Source: a virus
Reading direction: 5' to 3' (one strand)
Length of the DNA stretch: 25,858 nt
IMG/VR virus record: IMGVR_UViG_3300047462_000711
Span: 1-25,858 of that record
Shown here: in pieces, positions 7,718 to 22,788 of the stretch
Layout: each line of letters starts with the position of its first letter
Numbering within the stretch: position 1 is the stretch's first letter
Position numbers and translations under genes: made by a program
Notes under the pieces: model-generated
The model's input: the letters and a program-made list of their open reading frames with translations, nothing else
Told to the model about the DNA's origin: nothing
Database searches by the model: none

Positions 7718-8596
7718 CTACGCCAGCGAGCGGTCTACCGGATCGCCGGCCCGCGAGCCATACGCGGTGCGCAGCGCCGGCGGCGGCGCTACCAGGCGTA
7801 CGACCTGCTGCAGGCGCTCGGGCTTGAACGGCTTGGCCATGCAGACCACCGCGCCCAGTTCATGGCTGGTGGCGTAGTCGGCAGTCTTGGCCGCGCGAGT
7901 CATCAGGATCACCGGCACCTTCGCCAGGCGCTCGTTCTGCTTGATGATCACGCAAAGGTCCTGGCCGGACATATCCTCGGCTTCCACTTCCGCGATAAAC
8001 ACCGACGGAACGGTGGTGCGCAGAATTTCCAGCGCGGCCTGCGCGGAGGGAACGGCGATCACGGTGTAGCCGTCCTGTTCGAGCATGTTGCGCATGGCTT
8101 CGGCGCTCCGCGGGTCGGGCTCGATCGCGAGCACCACCGACTGCGCGGCGGCGGAGGCTGCGGCGCTCTGGGCGGCAGACGGAGAGCCCTTCGAGGAGGC
8201 CGTTTTCCGCTCGCCCTTGGCGTCCGCTTTCGCGGACACAAACTGCACCGCCACGCCGAATTTCCCCGCAGGTTGCGGAACGGTGCGAACTACCTCGGCC
8301 GGCTGGCCCTGGTTCATCGCGCCGGCCATATTCGAGTAGGGGAAGGTGACTTCCAGGATCTGTCCCTTGAAGTAGCCCGAGAATTTCGACGTGAACAGCA
8401 GGCCGTCGCGGGACACATCCACGCTCATACAGACTTCTTCAAACGGCTCGGGCGCGTTCACCGCGCGGACGTGTACCTGCGCGGAGATCTTGGCGCGCCG
8501 GCGCCGTCGGCGGTCGATGCCGCTTTGCGAAGACTTGTCAGCTTGTGCAGGCGCGTTTGCGTTAGGAGCTGCCGGGATAGTGGTGCTTGTCGCCAT
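7718..8596 (-). CDS. PilZ domain fused to a degenerate response-regulator receiver
   Basis: A 292-aa cytoplasmic protein. After a disordered Ala/Pro start, a PilZ domain (about 28-122) shows the arginine cluster at 29-34 and the D60-V-S-R-D-G65 motif, the two signatures of cyclic di-GMP binding. An Ala/Ser linker leads to a receiver fold (about 153-270). There the normal acidic pair is E159/P160-D161, and the phosphoacceptor position is Glu203 (FIAEVEAEDMSG) instead of Asp. Thr233 and Lys255 are kept. It is therefore probably a pseudo-receiver locked in one state. ATG 8596 has AGGGGA six bases upstream. It is transcribed away from the scaffold gene and would link a host second messenger to the element. 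Domain calls are firm; the role in a phage is inferred. Confidence 0.88.
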   Translation of the reverse strand: MATSTTIPAAPNANAPAQADKSSQSGIDRRRRRRAKISAQVHVRAVNAPEPFEEVCMSVDVSRDGLLFTSKFSGYFKGQILEVTFPYSNMAGAMNQGQPAEVVRTVPQPAGKFGVAVQFVSAKADAKGERKTASSKGSPSAAQSAAASAAAQSVVLAIEPDPRSAEAMRNMLEQDGYTVIAVPSAQAALEILRTTVPSVFIAEVEAEDMSGQDLCVIIKQNERLAKVPVILMTRAAKTADYATSHELGAVVCMAKPFKPERLQQVVRLVAPPPALRTAYGSRAGDPVDRSLA

Positions 8597-10764: not shown

Positions 10765-12039
10765 ATGGCACAAATGCAAAATTCACAATCGGTTGCGCTG
10801 CAACTGGAAAAAGTCCGGGACAAGCTTCCGCTGCTCTATGAGCGGAATGACATCCTGCTGACGATGATCCAGCAGCGCGGCGACGTGGAACGCGTCAGCT
10901 CGCGGAACATGCGGCTTCCGCTGCAGATTCGTCCGGGAGGCAAAGCCGGCCTTGCGAACATGGACGGCGGCGACCTCGGGCGCGGCTCGGGGACCGTCTA
11001 CGACGTGGCGCAGGTGACGCCGGTATTCTTCCGGCACGCGGTGGAAATCACCAAGCTGGTCGAATACGCCTCGAATGCGCCGGAGAAGGCCATCGAAAAC
11101 GCGGCCAAGCGCGAAGTGAAAAACGCTATGGCGCAGTTCCGCTCATTCCTCGACAAGGTGATGCAGACCAACGGCAACGGCGTGCTGGGCACGGTCAGCT
11201 CGATCACCACCAGCGGGTTGCCGAGCGGCGTGGCCGCGCAGTTCGGGATGGCCAAGCCGCCCGGCGCGCAGCTTTTCTATTACAACCAGACCGTCCAGGT
11301 GTACGACCCGACGCTTACCACCAATCGCGGCTCGGCCAACATCCTGCTGGTCGACCCGTTCAACTCGCTCATCCAGGTGGACAGCCTGCCCAGCGGCACC
11401 AGCGTGAACGACCTGATCGTGCATGACGGGCTCACCGGCGCTTCGCCGGTGTCGCTCTTCGGCATTTTGTATCACCAGACCAACGCGACCACCGGCACGT
11501 GGCTCAACCTCAACCGCTCGACCTACCCGGTGGAGCTCGCCACGCCCAACGTGAACGCGAGCAACTCGGCGCTCACACCCGGCGCGGTGCGGCTGGCGAT
11601 CAACAAGGTACGCAAGGCATTGGGCACCAACCAGGTGAACAAGCTGGTGGCCTACACCTCTCTCGAGCAGGAGCACCAGTGGGAGCAACTAGGCGTGACC
11701 ATCTCGCAGATCATCAAGGAGGGAGCGGGCGGGCGTGCCAGCGATCTCGACCTGCTCTTTACCGGCGAGAAGACCATGGCCGGCGTGCCGATCAAGGCCA
11801 GCATCAATGCGAACGCGTCGCGGGTGGATTTTCTGGACCTTTCGCACTGGGGCCGCGCGGTGATGCAGGACATCGACTTCTACGATGTCGGCGGGCAAAC
11901 CGTGTTCCCGATCTACGGGGCCAGCGGCGGGCTGGCCAGCGCGTACATCTTTTACTTCGTCACGGGTTTTCAGGTGTGGAACGATTCGCCGCGCAGCGGG
12001 GCGTACATCAGCAACCTGGCGATCCCGACGGGGTACTAA
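10765..12039 (+). CDS. Major capsid protein (HK97-fold, inferred)
   Basis: A 424-aa protein with an AAGGGG ribosome site 12-17 bases before its ATG. The N-terminus is helical (SVALQLEKVRDKLPLLYERN, then DILLTMIQQRGDVERVSSRN). The ordered core includes NAMAQFRSFLDKVMQTNGNG, a VYDPTLTTNRG strand-turn, the helix LAINKVRKALGTNQVNKLVAYTS, and a late GVPIKASINANASRVDFLDL segment of the sort seen in the A domain of HK97-like shells. Size, order after the scaffold and the presence of a matching terminase support capsid. The N-terminus lacks an obvious long cleaved delta domain, consistent with the separate scaffold gene. The adjacent protease is retropepsin-like and not a typical prohead protease, so a maturation role for it is unproven. 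Confidence 0.82.
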   Translation: MAQMQNSQSVALQLEKVRDKLPLLYERNDILLTMIQQRGDVERVSSRNMRLPLQIRPGGKAGLANMDGGDLGRGSGTVYDVAQVTPVFFRHAVEITKLVEYASNAPEKAIENAAKREVKNAMAQFRSFLDKVMQTNGNGVLGTVSSITTSGLPSGVAAQFGMAKPPGAQLFYYNQTVQVYDPTLTTNRGSANILLVDPFNSLIQVDSLPSGTSVNDLIVHDGLTGASPVSLFGILYHQTNATTGTWLNLNRSTYPVELATPNVNASNSALTPGAVRLAINKVRKALGTNQVNKLVAYTSLEQEHQWEQLGVTISQIIKEGAGGRASDLDLLFTGEKTMAGVPIKASINANASRVDFLDLSHWGRAVMQDIDFYDVGGQTVFPIYGASGGLASAYIFYFVTGFQVWNDSPRSGAYISNLAIPTGY

Positions 12040-12069: not shown

Positions 12070-12138
12070 AAAACAAAAGGGGCGACCGTTATGGTCGCCC
12101 CTGAAATTCGGAACGTGCACTGGACACGCCTGACAAGC
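12070..12138 (-). ncRNA. Predicted ~69-nt antisense RNA against the adjacent tRNA
   Basis: On the minus strand a TTGAAA-16-TATAAT promoter (12172-12145) places the start at G12138. The RNA would end at an intrinsic terminator: the GGGGCGACC stem (12101-12093), loop ATAAC, GGTCGCCCC (12087-12079), then TTTTGTTTT. Its first 20 bases, GCTTGTCAGGCGTGTCCAGT, are complementary to tRNA bases at 12257-12238 (ACTGGACACGTCTGACAAGC), with one G-U pair and no mismatch. The complement covers the 3' side of the tRNA D stem, the 5' anticodon stem and the whole anticodon loop. The short middle (GCACGTTCCGAATTTCA) is unstructured. Transcription and function are inferred from sequence alone. Confidence 0.6.
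12079..12101 (-). terminator. Rho-independent terminator
   Basis: A perfect 9-bp GC-rich stem (GGGGCGACC/GGTCGCCCC) with a 5-base loop. On the minus strand it is followed by TTTTGTTTTATT; on the plus strand it is followed by TGAAATTC, so it is oriented to stop minus-strand transcripts. It may also weakly stop or protect the capsid mRNA 3' end. Confidence 0.8.
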
Positions 12139-12257
12139 AACCTCATTATAGCGCTTCCGGCCACGTTTTCAAGTCGCATTGGGAGCACGAACGGAGAGCG
12201 GGAGACTCGAACTCCGAGGCTGTTCCCAGCCCCCAACGCTTGTCAGACGTGTCCAGT
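12119..12257. repeat. 20-bp inverted repeat linking antisense RNA and tRNA
   Basis: ACTGGACACGCCTGACAAGC at 12119-12138 and its inverted copy at 12238-12257 differ at a single position, with 99 bases between them. The right arm is the D-stem/anticodon part of the tRNA gene. The left arm is the 5' end of the predicted small RNA. Confidence 0.9.
12145..12172 (-). promoter_or_regulatory. Sigma70-type promoter for the small RNA
   Basis: Reading the minus strand: TTGAAA (12172-12167), a 16-base spacer, then TATAAT (12150-12145). This is a near-consensus promoter in otherwise GC-rich DNA. Seven bases past the -10 is G12138, the first base of the tRNA-complementary element. It lies downstream of the tRNA gene on the same strand, so it cannot serve the tRNA itself. 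Confidence 0.7.
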
Positions 12258-12279
12258 ACCCTCACTGGCAGCACTCTCC
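12192..12279 (-). tRNA. Class II serine-like allo-tRNA with 8/4 architecture, anticodon GAC
   Basis: Read on the minus strand, an 88-nt cloverleaf begins GGAGAGTG and ends CGCTCTCC plus discriminator G. These ends pair over 8 bp (one T-G). The T arm is GGAG-TTCGAGT-CTCC, so the T stem has only 4 bp, giving an 8/4 branch where ordinary tRNAs have 7/5. The D arm is CCAGT-GAGGGT-ACTGG (a sixth G-T pair is possible). The anticodon loop is CTGACAA, anticodon GAC, closed by 4 bp plus a C-T mismatch. The long variable arm is GGCTG-GGAA-CAGCC. Long variable arm and G73 are seryl-tRNA synthetase determinants, so it would deliver Ser to Val GUC/GUU codons. tRNAs with 8/4 or 9/3 stems are known, including in Acidobacteria and phages. 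CCA is not encoded. It could be degenerate or purely regulatory. Confidence 0.7.
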
Positions 12280-12294
12280 GAAACACACCTGACC

Positions 12295-12319
12295 GGCGGC
12301 TCTTATGCCAAAGGCCGCC
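12295..12319. promoter_or_regulatory. Hairpin upstream of the tRNA gene
   Basis: GGCGGC (12295-12300) and GCCGCC (12314-12319) are inverted around 13 bases. A second dyad, GGTAC-gttt-GTACC, lies at 12356-12369. On the minus strand, TTGTAG-17-CATAAG overlaps the first hairpin and is the best, though weak, promoter candidate for the tRNA. The 280-392 spacer portion otherwise holds nothing I can support. Confidence 0.3.
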
Positions 12320-12986: not shown

Positions 12987-13334
12987 CGCGGGGCGTTAAA
13001 GGCAAAGACAAAAACTGAAACAAAGAGGGGTCCCTCGTCGCTTCGCTCGCTCGGGATAACAACGAGAAGCAACGACAAAGTCACAATCAAAGAAAGACCC
13101 ACCCTTAAGAACGAAGGGTGGGGCACCCGAAAAAACACGGCCGTGACGCAGGTTTGCTGTTGCTTTTCTGGGTTCGCGATCGTCTGGTTTGAAGGACGGG
13201 CTTTTCTGAGCAAACTTCCTCACAGTAAAAACAAAGCACCGAAATCCGATTCTTAGATACGAATAGGTCGAGACGCGCAAAAGCAGCGGCCACCGTGCGG
13301 CCTTACATGAAAGGAAAATCACTTGAGGGATACG
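12987..13334. repeat. Repeat-rich spacer
   Basis: It holds a dispersed element (GGTCCCTCGTCGCTTCGCTC, then GCTCGGGATAAC, about 13028-13060) and a 9-bp hairpin CCCACCCTT/AAGGGTGGG (13098-13106 and 13114-13122) that belongs to the 'gggtggggcacccg' repeat type. The rest, to 13334, is relatively AT-rich and may carry the promoter of the next gene, but I cannot name hexamers with confidence. No gene is seen. Confidence 0.55.
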
Positions 13335-14060
13335 ATGATGTCGATGGCAGAGCAGGGAACCCCGCGCGCGGCGCCGGGATACGCGGGCGGGCGGCGCGAG
13401 GTGATCGTGGACACGCAGCCCAAGGGCGACACCGCCGCGACCGTGGCGATCGCATCGATTTCGGACCAGGACTGGTATGTGTCGCGCACGCACGGGGTCT
13501 ACCACATCCCCGCGTGCGCCAAGGGCGAGGCCTACGCGCTGCTGCTGCTCACTTCGCGCGGAGATGTGATCGACCTGGGGGATAACCGGCGGTTTCCCTT
13601 CACGATTACGGCGCGGGAAATCGCCGACGACCTGCTGCAGGACCTGCACGACCACGGCGTCTTTGTGTGCGCGGGGGCGCGGCCTTCGGCGGAGGAACTA
13701 GCGTCCGCGGCGGCCCGGCGCGATGCGTATTACCACCGGCTGATCGGCGAGGGCGACACGATGTGGGCGCGCGGCCATTCCTATCGCGAAATTTCGGACC
13801 TGCACCGGCGCGCGGCGATCGCGCTCGGCGTCGAGCGCGAGTGGGCCTACGTGCCGATGAAGATGGGCGAGTGCCCGGCGTGCGGCGAGAAGGTGAAGTC
13901 CGGAGTCGCGGTGTGCAAGCATTGCCATGCCATTCTGGATGCGCACAAAGCGGCGAAGCATGGACTCGGCCAGGCGGCGCGGGAGATCCCCGCGCAAGCG
14001 CCCGTGCCCGAGGGCCAGGCGGAGAGCGCTGCGGTGAAACCGGCTGAGCGCAAGAAGTGA
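13335..14060 (+). CDS. Zinc-ribbon phage-associated protein
   Basis: A 241-aa protein. The N-terminal half contains ISDQDWYVSRTHGVYHIPAC and a DNRRFPFTITAREIADDLLQ segment with a DLHDHGVFVC end. The middle is helical (EELASAAARRDAYYHRLIGE). The C-terminal part has a treble-cysteine-pair zinc ribbon: CPACGEKVKSGVAVCKHCHA, i.e. CxxC-x10-CxxC, at about residues 179-195. A basic, Ala/Pro-rich tail follows. Start codons at 13323 (TTG), 13335, 13338 and 13344 are all possible; GAGGGA sits at 13326-13331, and I use 13335. Zinc ribbons of this sort occur in DNA-, RNA- or protein-binding proteins. It likely works with the preceding gene, but no function can be given. Confidence 0.75.
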   Translation: MMSMAEQGTPRAAPGYAGGRREVIVDTQPKGDTAATVAIASISDQDWYVSRTHGVYHIPACAKGEAYALLLLTSRGDVIDLGDNRRFPFTITAREIADDLLQDLHDHGVFVCAGARPSAEELASAAARRDAYYHRLIGEGDTMWARGHSYREISDLHRRAAIALGVEREWAYVPMKMGECPACGEKVKSGVAVCKHCHAILDAHKAAKHGLGQAAREIPAQAPVPEGQAESAAVKPAERKK

Positions 14061-18949: not shown

Positions 18950-19355
18950 ATGATGTCAGACCCGCCGGGACGTGGACGCCGAATGAGAATACTGCTGGCA
19001 GACGATTTCGAGGTGGTACGCACCGGCCTCAAAAATCTGTTGAATGGGAATGAGAAGTGGGAAGTATGCGGCGAGGCCGAAAACGGCCTGGCGGCGGTGG
19101 AAAAAGCGGTCGAGCTGAACCCCGACCTGGTGGTGCTCGACATTACCATGCCCGTTATGAACGGCTTCGAGGCCGCGCGGGAAATCAGAAAACGCTCCCC
19201 CCAGGACCAAGATCGTCATGTTCTCCATGCACGAATCGGCGCGAATGATGGAAGAGGCCAAGCACGCGGGCGCCGACGCCTACGTGGTAAAAAGCAGCGG
19301 CATCGAAGACATCGAAAAGACCATCGGCCGGCTATTCGACGGCAGCCAGACGTAG
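18950..19355 (+). pseudogene. Receiver-only response regulator (CheY/NarL type), frameshifted
   Basis: The first part reads MRILLADDFEVVRTGLKNLL, with acidic pair D18-D19, then phosphoacceptor D64 in LVVLDITMPVMNG. After KRSP the sense moves to the +1 frame: KIVMFSMHESARMMEEAKHA, then GADAYVVKSSGIEDIEKTIG, ending at TAG 19353-19355. This supplies the missing Ser and Lys of the active site. The break is in a run of six C (19197-19202); five C would give a normal 134-aa receiver. All catalytic residues are then intact, unlike the PilZ-linked receiver at 7718-8596. There is no output domain. ATG 18950, 18953 and 18983 are possible starts, none with a clear ribosome site. A length change in a C run may be an assembly error or phase variation. 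Confidence 0.8.
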
Positions 19356-19625
19356 CATTCTCCCCATCCAGCAGGCGTGAATTAATCCAAGCGGCACGCT
19401 TTTCCGGGTGCCCGACCCGTGGTGTGGAAGGATCGGGTCTTTGACTTGATTTTCGCCTCCGGTGGGTTCGCGGGCATCTCGGATTCGCGCCGGAAGACTC
19501 CGGCCCTCAAACGCGCAGGGCTGGGCACCCGTAAAGCCAAAACGTTCGCTGCGACGCCGGCGGCGACGCGGCCTCGTTTTCGTCTCGCACGACCCATCTC
19601 GCACGAGAAATTCAAGGAAACTTTC
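19356..19625. other. Spacer with small hairpins, no gene
   Basis: It holds a short stem GCCGGA-agac-TCCGGC (19489-19504) and fragments of the 'gggtgcccgaccc' and 'gggctgggcacccg' repeat type near 19407 and 19520. Nothing in the open frames looks like protein. Confidence 0.4.
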
Positions 19626-20799: not shown

Positions 20800-22788
20800 T
20801 TACAGGCTGACCACGTTCAGGGTGATCGAGACGCCCCGCGAGGTATTCTGCGAATTGCCGTTAATGACCATGTTCGTCGCGCCGATTGGCGTCTGGCCCG
20901 GCACGGAGACGCTTCTTTTGCAGCCGGCCAGGACGGCCAGGGCAACCGCAAGAATCGCCAGCACCGGAAGCGCGCGCCGCATCCACAGCGGCGAGCGGCG
21001 GCGCCTCATCATCCATGCAAGCGACACGAGAGATGCGGCGCACAACGCCACCAGCAATGCCGCGAAGGCGGCCGGAAACGGCGGGAACCGCCGCGGATCG
21101 CTGGGAAACCTCGGAGCCAGCGTATTGACCGGATTCACCAGGCCGGTGGTCTGAAACGTCACTTGAAACGGCGCGGGCGTGCCGGGCGAAACGGTCACCG
21201 TGGGCGTGGAAAACGTGCAGGTGGTGTTGGTCGGCAGGTTGCTCGGGCAGACCAGCGTCACCACGCCGCTGAACACGTTATCGGGCACCACTTGCAGGCT
21301 CATGGTGATGGCGTTGCCGGCCAGCACGGAGACGGACATGAGCTGGCCGGGCGCGAGCGCGAGTTCGTAATCGTCGCCCGTGCCGCTGAGCACCGTGGAC
21401 GCCGAATCGGAAGGGTTCGCATCCGTCACCGTGAACGTGGCGGAGCGCGCGCCGGTGGCCGTGGGCGTGAATGCCACGCTTAGCGTGCAGCTGGAACTCC
21501 CGGGCAGCGTGGCCGTGCAATTGGTGCTTTCCAAAGTGAAATCGGCGGGCGTGGTGGCCTTGGGGATGGTTAATCCGCTCACGGAAGTGGACGCGGTGGT
21601 GTTGCTCACCGTGAATGTCTGGGTCGCGCTGGTGCCGCCGTTGGCGAGGTTCCCAAACGCGGCGGAGGCCGGCGAGAGCGAGATGCTGCCCTGGGACGTG
21701 CCCACCTGCGCGAAGGCCACGATGCGGTTGAGCCCCTGCTCGGCGGCGTAGAGGTTGCCGCTCGGGTCGAACGCGAGCGCGCCGGGCGCGCTCAGTCCGC
21801 TGGCCATCACGCTGGCAGCCGATGTTTGCGCGTCAATCCTCAGGATCCGCCCGCGATCGGCGTCGGCGATGAACAGATTTCCCGCGAAATCCACCGCGAG
21901 CCCCGCGGGGCAGAGCTGCACTGAGGTGGAACAGGCCGTTGGCCCGGCATGCAGGAAACCGCTTGTGGCAGGCGGCCGCGGCGACACGGCGGAAATCGCG
22001 CGCGTCTGCGTGTTGATCGCGAACACCGCCCCGGCTTTGGGCGAGGCTACATAGACAGTGCTGCCGTCGGGGGTGACCGCGACGCTCGCCGGGGAAGCCA
22101 CCTGCGCGAGCGTTTGCAGTTGCCCGCTGCCCGCGGCGATCAGGTCAACCGCCCCGGCGCCATGGTCGGCGATATAGAGGTTCCCCGCGCGATCGAGCGC
22201 GATTCCCAGCGGCTCCACCAGGTTGATGTTCTGTTGGGCCGCCCAGCGCCCCGCGAGGCTGCGAACGATGCCCGGCTCGCTGCTCAATGAACCGGCAATC
22301 GCGCGGATGGTCGCGTTGCCCGTGTCGGCGACGTAAAGAGTGCCGTCCGGGCCGCCGGCGATGCCGCTGCGTTCAATGAGAGATGCGGCGGCGAGATCGA
22401 ACTGGGCCGCGACGGCCGCGCCGCCATCGCCCAGCGAACCGGTTGCGCCGGTTCCGGCGACGGCCGCGATTCGCACATTGGAGACGGGAACGCCTGCTGC
22501 TGACGGCACGCCCACCGTGAAGATTTGATTGGGCGCGGTGGCGTTAGTGAGGTCGATAGCGCCGCTGCCCGGCACCGCCGCCAGCGCCCGCGGCGCAATC
22601 CCGGCGGCTACGACCGACACTTTGTTGGCGGAAACGATACCCGAAGTTGCTGTCGCGGATGCTCCCGCGCTCGAGCCGGACTGGCTGCTCTGGCGCGCGG
22701 CCGCCGCATCTCCCGAATTTTTACCGATGGCGACCAGCGCCGCACATATGGAAACCGCTACCGCGCAAACAACAGCCAGTCGCCGCAC
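20800..22788 (-). CDS. Exported NHL-repeat/choice-of-anchor protein
   Basis: A 662-aa protein facing the phage genes. It begins with GTG 22788, after GGGAGAG. An N-terminal signal (LAVVCAVAVSICAALVAIG) is followed by an Ala/Ser-rich stretch. Then come NHL-type beta-propeller blades: PDGTLYVADTGNATIRAIAG, EPLGIALDRAGNLYIADHGA, PAGLAVDFAGNLFIADADRG and PGALAFDPSGNLYAAEQGLN (about 140-370). Ig-like 'choice-of-anchor D' strands follow (SLSPASAAFGNLANGGTSAT and on, about 375-480), then a second Ig-like domain and two C-terminal membrane segments with an internal LAVLAGC. It is of a type very common on acidobacterial cell surfaces. A TATGAT -10 lies at 22876-22871 on the minus strand. It probably is host cargo, not a virion part. 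Confidence 0.85.
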   Translation of the reverse strand: MRRLAVVCAVAVSICAALVAIGKNSGDAAAARQSSQSGSSAGASATATSGIVSANKVSVVAAGIAPRALAAVPGSGAIDLTNATAPNQIFTVGVPSAAGVPVSNVRIAAVAGTGATGSLGDGGAAVAAQFDLAAASLIERSGIAGGPDGTLYVADTGNATIRAIAGSLSSEPGIVRSLAGRWAAQQNINLVEPLGIALDRAGNLYIADHGAGAVDLIAAGSGQLQTLAQVASPASVAVTPDGSTVYVASPKAGAVFAINTQTRAISAVSPRPPATSGFLHAGPTACSTSVQLCPAGLAVDFAGNLFIADADRGRILRIDAQTSAASVMASGLSAPGALAFDPSGNLYAAEQGLNRIVAFAQVGTSQGSISLSPASAAFGNLANGGTSATQTFTVSNTTASTSVSGLTIPKATTPADFTLESTNCTATLPGSSSCTLSVAFTPTATGARSATFTVTDANPSDSASTVLSGTGDDYELALAPGQLMSVSVLAGNAITMSLQVVPDNVFSGVVTLVCPSNLPTNTTCTFSTPTVTVSPGTPAPFQVTFQTTGLVNPVNTLAPRFPSDPRRFPPFPAAFAALLVALCAASLVSLAWMMRRRRSPLWMRRALPVLAILAVALAVLAGCKRSVSVPGQTPIGATNMVINGNSQNTSRGVSITLNVVSL

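Follow-up and report, generated by a model that had tools for sequence, protein, structure and literature searches.

Allo-tRNA genes paired with a predicted antisense RNA complementary to the anticodon arm in Acidobacteriota genomes and phages

Allo-tRNAs of the 8/4 and 9/3 types (Mukai et al. 2017, reviewed in PMC7609411) are transfer RNAs (tRNAs) of Acidobacteria that combine serine (Ser)-like features with non-serine anticodons; in the 8/4 type, a 12-bp acceptor branch split 8/4 is accompanied by a long variable arm. The same features recur in a tRNA gene on IMG/VR virus record IMGVR_UViG_3300047462_000711 (positions 1 to 25,858; this whole stretch of 25,858 nt is called the window below), which is followed on the same strand by a predicted small RNA gene whose 5′ end is complementary to the anticodon arm of the tRNA. 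The natural role of allo-tRNAs is still considered speculative; their commonest 8/4 anticodons are reported to be UAU, GCG and GUC, and one UAU group has been hypothesized to be tied to transposons or toxin-antitoxin systems (PMC7609411). That review mentions neither an antisense RNA nor a leader or trailer lock, and in the literature searched the two kinds of RNA were not joined in any relevant way, although an earlier remark in the 2017 primary paper is possible. An earlier note on this DNA knew of no described system of this form; the tRNA half proves to be a known type, and the pair, its locks and its covariation appear to be new.

In the hok/sok system, a folded, self-inhibited precursor is combined with a small antisense RNA made from a strong promoter. 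The unit described here would follow the same logic, but has no toxin mRNA or protein: the effector would be the tRNA itself. The antisense target of a type I system is the mRNA of a small-protein toxin, whereas here it is a tRNA with a covarying cloverleaf. Type VIII toxin-antitoxin systems (SdsR-RyeA, CreTA) likewise consist of two closely linked RNAs (<200 bp), one of them the predicted neutralizer (PMC10767807), and in our unit two predicted RNAs lie about 50 nt apart on one strand. The antitoxin RNA of CreTA directs Cascade to repress toxin transcription (PMC9458426), whereas here the predicted effector is a tRNA and its partner a direct, same-strand-encoded antisense of the anticodon arm. 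By analogy, the nearest logic is that of hok/sok and the nearest formal class is type VIII. No protein part was recognized in the module, in which conservation of open reading frames (ORFs) was not formally assessed.

A predicted small RNA gene directed at the anticodon arm

The earlier note had proposed a promoter-to-terminator small RNA just downstream of the tRNA, whose first 20 nt pair with the tRNA, with one G-U among the pairs. Promoter and pairing are present as described, and the terminator has a stem of 10 pairs, not nine (Table 1). The promoter matches the consensus at 11 of 12 positions, and the surrounding 1.5-kb region contains two promoter-like sites versus 0.2 expected from shuffles. 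Antisense arm and target form a 20-nt inverted repeat that is 95% complementary, the sole mismatch being a G-U pair in RNA; one further base, 12139, can be added to the complement, and the start is predicted at G12138. The downstream pairing score is 21.2, far above the mean of 11.0 in shuffled sequence.

Table 1. Features of the tRNA and small RNA unit in the window
Feature	Coordinates	Strand	Support or remark
Allo-tRNA gene, 88 nt	12192-12279	minus	ARAGORN; cloverleaf covariation over 96 distinct relatives
Antisense target in tRNA, nt 23-42 (D stem 3′ strand, anticodon 5′ stem and loop)	12238-12257	minus	
Small RNA gene, ~69 nt (antisense 5′ end, intrinsic terminator at 3′ end)	12070-12139	minus	start predicted
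Small RNA promoter: TTGAAA (12172-12167), 16 nt, TATAAT (12150-12145)	12145-12172	minus	
Antisense arm GCUUGUCAGGCGUGUCCAGU	12119-12138	minus	inverted repeat; covariation across 74 distinct arm pairs
Intrinsic terminator AGGGGCGACC-AUAAC-GGUCGCCCCU, then UUUGUUUUAU	12078-12102	minus	10-bp hairpin, T-rich tail
5′ leader segment GUCAGGUGUGUUU, complementary to tRNA nt 26-38 (12242-12254)	12281-12293	minus	leader duplex score 10.6
3′ trailer segment CUCCCAAUGC, complementary to tRNA nt 41-50 (12230-12239)	12176-12185	minus	10/10 pairs with G-U
tRNA weak -10-like box (CATAAG), 22 nt upstream of tRNA nt 1	12302-12307	minus	

Relatives were collected with tRNA-only covariance models, which carried no small-RNA information, run on Acidobacteriota genomes and phages, and with a DNA pattern built from the acceptor and D arm only. 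The covariance models matched 59/397 genomes of one order and 5/95 of another, up to five times per genome, and at a stricter cut-off 15/399 genomes of the class. The pattern search returned five new viral loci with anticodons GCG, GAG and GAC, all five of which have the antisense arm. Altogether, 98 tRNA loci were examined, and the 85 with an ungapped downstream complement of at least 12/14 are counted as members of the family. Arm pairing of at least 13/14 is found at 78/98 loci and in 0/98 shuffles; four shuffles reach 12/14. Chance complementarity is ruled out by these shuffles, by the permutation test described below and by recurrence in 85/98 loci. The arrangement is thus much broader than a single locus and occurs in genomes of (soil) Acidobacteriota as well as in their phages, so that the acidobacterial prophage setting suggested by the earlier note holds in part: phages carry the module, which is common in chromosomes too.

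The signals that would make the small RNA a gene are conserved with the arm. When the best promoter site near the complement was chosen freely, and shuffles were given equal freedom, a score of 11 was reached in 60/85 members versus 9/850 shuffles. The -35 box is an exact TTGACA in 42/85, spacers are mostly 16-17 nt, and the -10 box mostly ends 4-5 nt ahead of the first complementary base, which places the predicted start on that base or beside it; matches to the -35 consensus average 5.0/6 for the small RNA versus 2.4/6 for the tRNA. A terminator is present in 84/85 members versus 1/85 shuffles, giving a median predicted length of 66 nt. No small RNA family in Rfam matched the window at gathering level, and weak matches to MicX, suhB and others reflect the terminator or chance resemblance. 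A promoter-only search of viral DNA returned mostly chance sites, and a search with a GGAGGG-type pattern matched no viral contigs.

Thirteen loci fall outside the family. Three of them (L059, L148 and L195) pair downstream with a bulge, and three look degenerate. The other seven, mostly with anticodon UAU and an intact cloverleaf, show no convincing complement when both strands are examined over 900 nt, or as far as the available DNA reaches. Five UAU allo-tRNAs (L191, L196, L198, L199 and L200) are 8/4 molecules of 84-85 nt whose cloverleaves are intact but which lack clear complements in the leader, in the trailer and in an antisense RNA downstream. Judged by sequence, the UAU allo-tRNAs are a separate subgroup and a natural negative group, and, in contrast to the published hypothesis that links a UAU group to transposons or toxin-antitoxin systems (PMC7609411), the UAU members here lack the antisense RNA. 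Homologues with the tRNA and no arm, which the earlier note would have taken as refutation, are seen mainly in this subgroup. Ordinary Ser/Leu-type tRNAs found by the model, used as controls, have no downstream anticodon-arm complement.

Covariation of the two arms

Across 74 distinct arm pairs, each arm forms on average 12.85/14 Watson-Crick pairs with its own partner, compared with 8.01 (standard deviation 0.21, maximum 8.78) in 2000 permutations. Covariation extends to the anticodon letters, and mutual information between the arms, high in the register of pairing, becomes low when they are slid against each other. Fourteen genomes carry two or more modules, and in 35/35 of these modules the module's own small RNA is strictly the best partner. 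A natural compensated change is seen between loci L111 and L112: their tRNAs differ at three sites, and their anticodons GAG and GAC are matched by CTC and GTC in the respective small RNAs. Two modules stand in tandem at L166:1020-1419 and again at L168:980-1600, every module with an antisense RNA of its own; the two anticodons at L166 differ.

The sequences fall into 38 clusters at 90% identity and 6 at 80%, and because they are related the family counts cannot be read as independent events; relatedness matters far less for the comparisons within genomes and between close pairs. Close pairs contain single compensated substitutions, although compensation is not always full, and L133 and L167 have one antisense sequence in common. 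The covariation of the two 20-nt arms alongside a conserved promoter and terminator, which the earlier note had named as the check to make, is thus strongly positive, and for this reason an RNA-only pair aimed at the anticodon arm is well supported. The anatomy, the covariation, the conservation of both signals and the specificity of each pair are features of the family as it is found in genomes and phages.

A DNA palindrome or mobile repeat, arising as an inverted duplication or hairpin site with no RNA function, would show pairing merely as a side effect of having been duplicated or gene-converted. Taken together, the small RNA, the leader and the trailer do resemble inverted copies of part of the tRNA, which makes duplication their likely origin. 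As an account of the whole unit this idea is extremely improbable: the promoter has a fixed spacing, the terminator is nearly universal, the footprint persists while its spacers drift, the pairing tolerates G-U, and the arms change by single compensated substitutions and not by conversion tracts.

The tRNA and its leader and trailer complements

By its sequence, the window tRNA has the known 8/4 allo-tRNA architecture, with an 8-bp acceptor stem, a 4-bp T stem, a 5-bp D stem and a long, 7-bp variable arm. Its anticodon loop is CUGACAA, with the anticodon GAC placed at 12244-12242 by ARAGORN, its discriminator is G, and CCA is not encoded, as is mostly the case across the family. The shape resembles that of tRNA-Sec (RF01852), which shares the 8-bp acceptor and long variable arm. 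Identity with tRNA-Sec is ruled out by a score of 33.8 bits against a gathering score of 47, the 4-bp T stem and the anticodon GAC instead of UCA. Eight acceptor pairs are found in 78/85 members and four T pairs in 81/85, the window having both. Over 96 distinct relatives, 96.9% of cloverleaf cells are paired, with 437 double-change cells versus 109 in shuffles. The anticodons of the 85 members, among the commonest of which are GCG and GUC, read frequent codons such as CGC, GGC, GAC and AUC, and never serine or stop codons.

The flanks of the tRNA are also complementary to it. The leader, 15-17 nt abutting the tRNA, pairs in register with the anticodon arm above the 95th percentile of shuffles in 69/85 members, and above the 95th percentile of leaders exchanged between anticodons in 44/85. 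The trailer, which comprises the first nucleotides behind the tRNA, is complementary to the 3′ strand of the anticodon stem and the 5′ part of the variable arm. Visual inspection and the footprint between hemA and hemC (see below) make this evident, but statistical support from a fixed 10-nt test is weaker: pairing of at least 9 occurs in 37/85 members versus 3/85 shuffled and 14/85 swapped trailers. When precursors were folded with both flanks, the minimum-energy fold was locked in 35/85 members versus 0/85 with shuffled flanks; for the window, the fold predicts the trailer lock (14 pairs), and the leader forms only two pairs. The folding models thus indicate that leader and trailer complements can both lock the tRNA precursor. 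The earlier note had suggested that read-through of the tRNA precursor into the small RNA would let the two arms fold in cis. Folding in cis is borne out in a modified form, and read-through is not needed for it because leader and trailer are themselves complementary.

A search for a strong promoter of the tRNA was negative. Only -10-like boxes are enriched: those with 5/6 or more matches lie 17-27 nt ahead of the tRNA in 32/84 members versus 1/84 for a control window. A -10-like box 20-23 nt upstream would start the tRNA transcript about where the leader complement begins.

The diversity of anticodons could also suit a decoy: the tRNA would attract anticodon nucleases or defences that target tRNAs, and would be buffered by its antisense RNA; phage tRNAs that evade tRNA-targeting defences are known (PMC11555353). 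We consider this very unlikely, since the antisense RNA and the cis locks would hide the very site that a decoy should expose, and the module is also frequent in chromosomes.

Genomic setting and proposed role

The contig is that of a phage, with a strong match for the large terminase and a weak match of the capsid protein to a major head protein family. The module occupies the minus strand of the gap that separates the major capsid gene (10765-12039) from the gene after it. Relatives of the capsid gene occur in IMG/VR contigs and Acidobacteriota genomes. Among phage loci whose capsid gene is related, L001 and L010 have the unit at the same site with both arms altered in concert, and L048 and L054 have it with different anticodons; at the remaining loci of this set the whole unit is absent from the DNA examined. 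The unit thus comes and goes whole. Four apparently related phages (L111, L112, L113 and L114) carry the module at another intergenic site, beside a zinc-ribbon gene that by eye resembles window 13323-14060, which suggests that the module has changed site within this group of phages. No direct DNA similarity to the window was found in named phages and plasmids. ORF inspection revealed no common partner among the neighbouring genes, Pfam having covered only hemA and hemC among chromosomal neighbours. Elsewhere in the window, a protein with NHL/beta-propeller and ASH/HYDIN-like Ig domains (20800-22788, minus strand) lies within the phage structural region and looks host-derived, and ORFs at 7718-8596 and 18950-19444, which by eye resemble response-regulator receiver domains, are possibly host-derived cargo.

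In five genomes (L106:9330-9423 and L077, L115, L117, L120, L155), a GAG-anticodon module is flanked by hemA (glutamyl-tRNA reductase) and hemC. The five orthologues have kept the leader, the tRNA, the trailer, the antisense arm and the terminator while the intervening DNA drifts, which suggests long vertical inheritance at that site. Such maintenance would fit a housekeeping regulator, namely a missense suppressor whose useful tRNA is released conditionally, by stress or phage timing, at a level set by the antisense RNA, with no addiction or killing. This alternative shares the anatomy of the explanation we prefer, and allo-tRNAs can be efficient missense suppressors in E. coli (PMC7609411). 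We nevertheless regard it as unlikely, because the scattered distribution, phage carriage, diversification of own pairs and presence of several orthogonal modules per genome more closely resemble competing addiction modules.

The explanation that we prefer is a dangerous effector in need of restraint, because a Ser-like tRNA with such anticodons would be hidden at its anticodon arm twice in cis and once in trans. The module would yield two RNAs, an 8/4 allo-tRNA and, from a strong promoter, an antisense RNA of about 66-70 nt. The body of the tRNA is tRNA-Ser/tRNA-Sec-like, and its anticodon would read a common non-serine codon (GUC, Val, in the window); charging by seryl-tRNA synthetase would then lead to insertion of Ser for Val. 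In yeast, charging of tRNA-Ser is not specified by the anticodon, and mistranslation is toxic (PMC6827378); in E. coli, Ser is inserted by Silvibacterium allo-tRNAs (PMC7609411). The precursor would be bistable, with leader and trailer paired to the anticodon and variable arms and the anticodon hidden until processing. Once the tRNA is freed, its D-stem and anticodon positions would be covered by the 5′ end of the antisense RNA, which would prevent decoding and might expose the tRNA to RNase III. If the antisense RNA were lost or scarce, the mistranslating tRNA would be released. Ser charging, processing, mistranslation, toxicity, neutralization and an addiction, toxin-antitoxin or timing role, some of which the earlier note had proposed, are what we infer from this arrangement.

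Several observations weigh against this explanation. C33 replaces U33 in 19/85 members and the discriminator is U in 17/85, either of which may weaken decoding or charging. The loop of L001, inspected directly, has anticodon GAC with C33. At L107, the anticodon stem is poor while complementarity to the small RNA is full, so decoding is perhaps not the function preserved everywhere. Only those 35 precursors have a locked fold as their predicted energy minimum, the leader lock of the window is supported by its pairing score only, and the -10 match of the window tRNA is poor. Certain allo-tRNA groups are, moreover, inactive in E. coli (PMC7609411).

C33 and the degenerate stem of L107 leave room for a non-translational role, with which the general lack of an encoded CCA also agrees. 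The tRNA could be a stable, tRNA-shaped regulator or sponge whose anticodon arm is a mere contact site, the true targets of the small RNA lying elsewhere. Sponges derived from tRNA transcripts, such as 3′ETS-leuZ, provide a precedent. We judge this role quite unlikely in view of U33 in 64/85 members, A37 in 83/85, acceptor and T stems that are ~99% paired with covariation, and anticodons confined to non-serine, mostly common codons.

Taken together, the evidence tips narrowly toward a conditionally unlocked mistranslating tRNA that is held by a dedicated antisense RNA in a hok/sok-like manner, most likely as an addiction or toxin-antitoxin-like module. More tentatively, and with somewhat more doubt than belief, we propose that such modules form a class of mobile toxin-antitoxin systems made of RNA only. 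A serine-charged missense tRNA would be the toxin, caged by leader and trailer as a precursor and, once mature, silenced by the antisense RNA to its anticodon arm; anticodon and antidote would co-diversify into mutually orthogonal pairs. With an antisense partner and cis locks, the role that allo-tRNAs play in nature can be tested directly. If the tRNA does mistranslate, the genetic code itself would be the weapon and the antisense RNA the antidote, and the family would supply naturally orthogonal tRNA/antisense switches.
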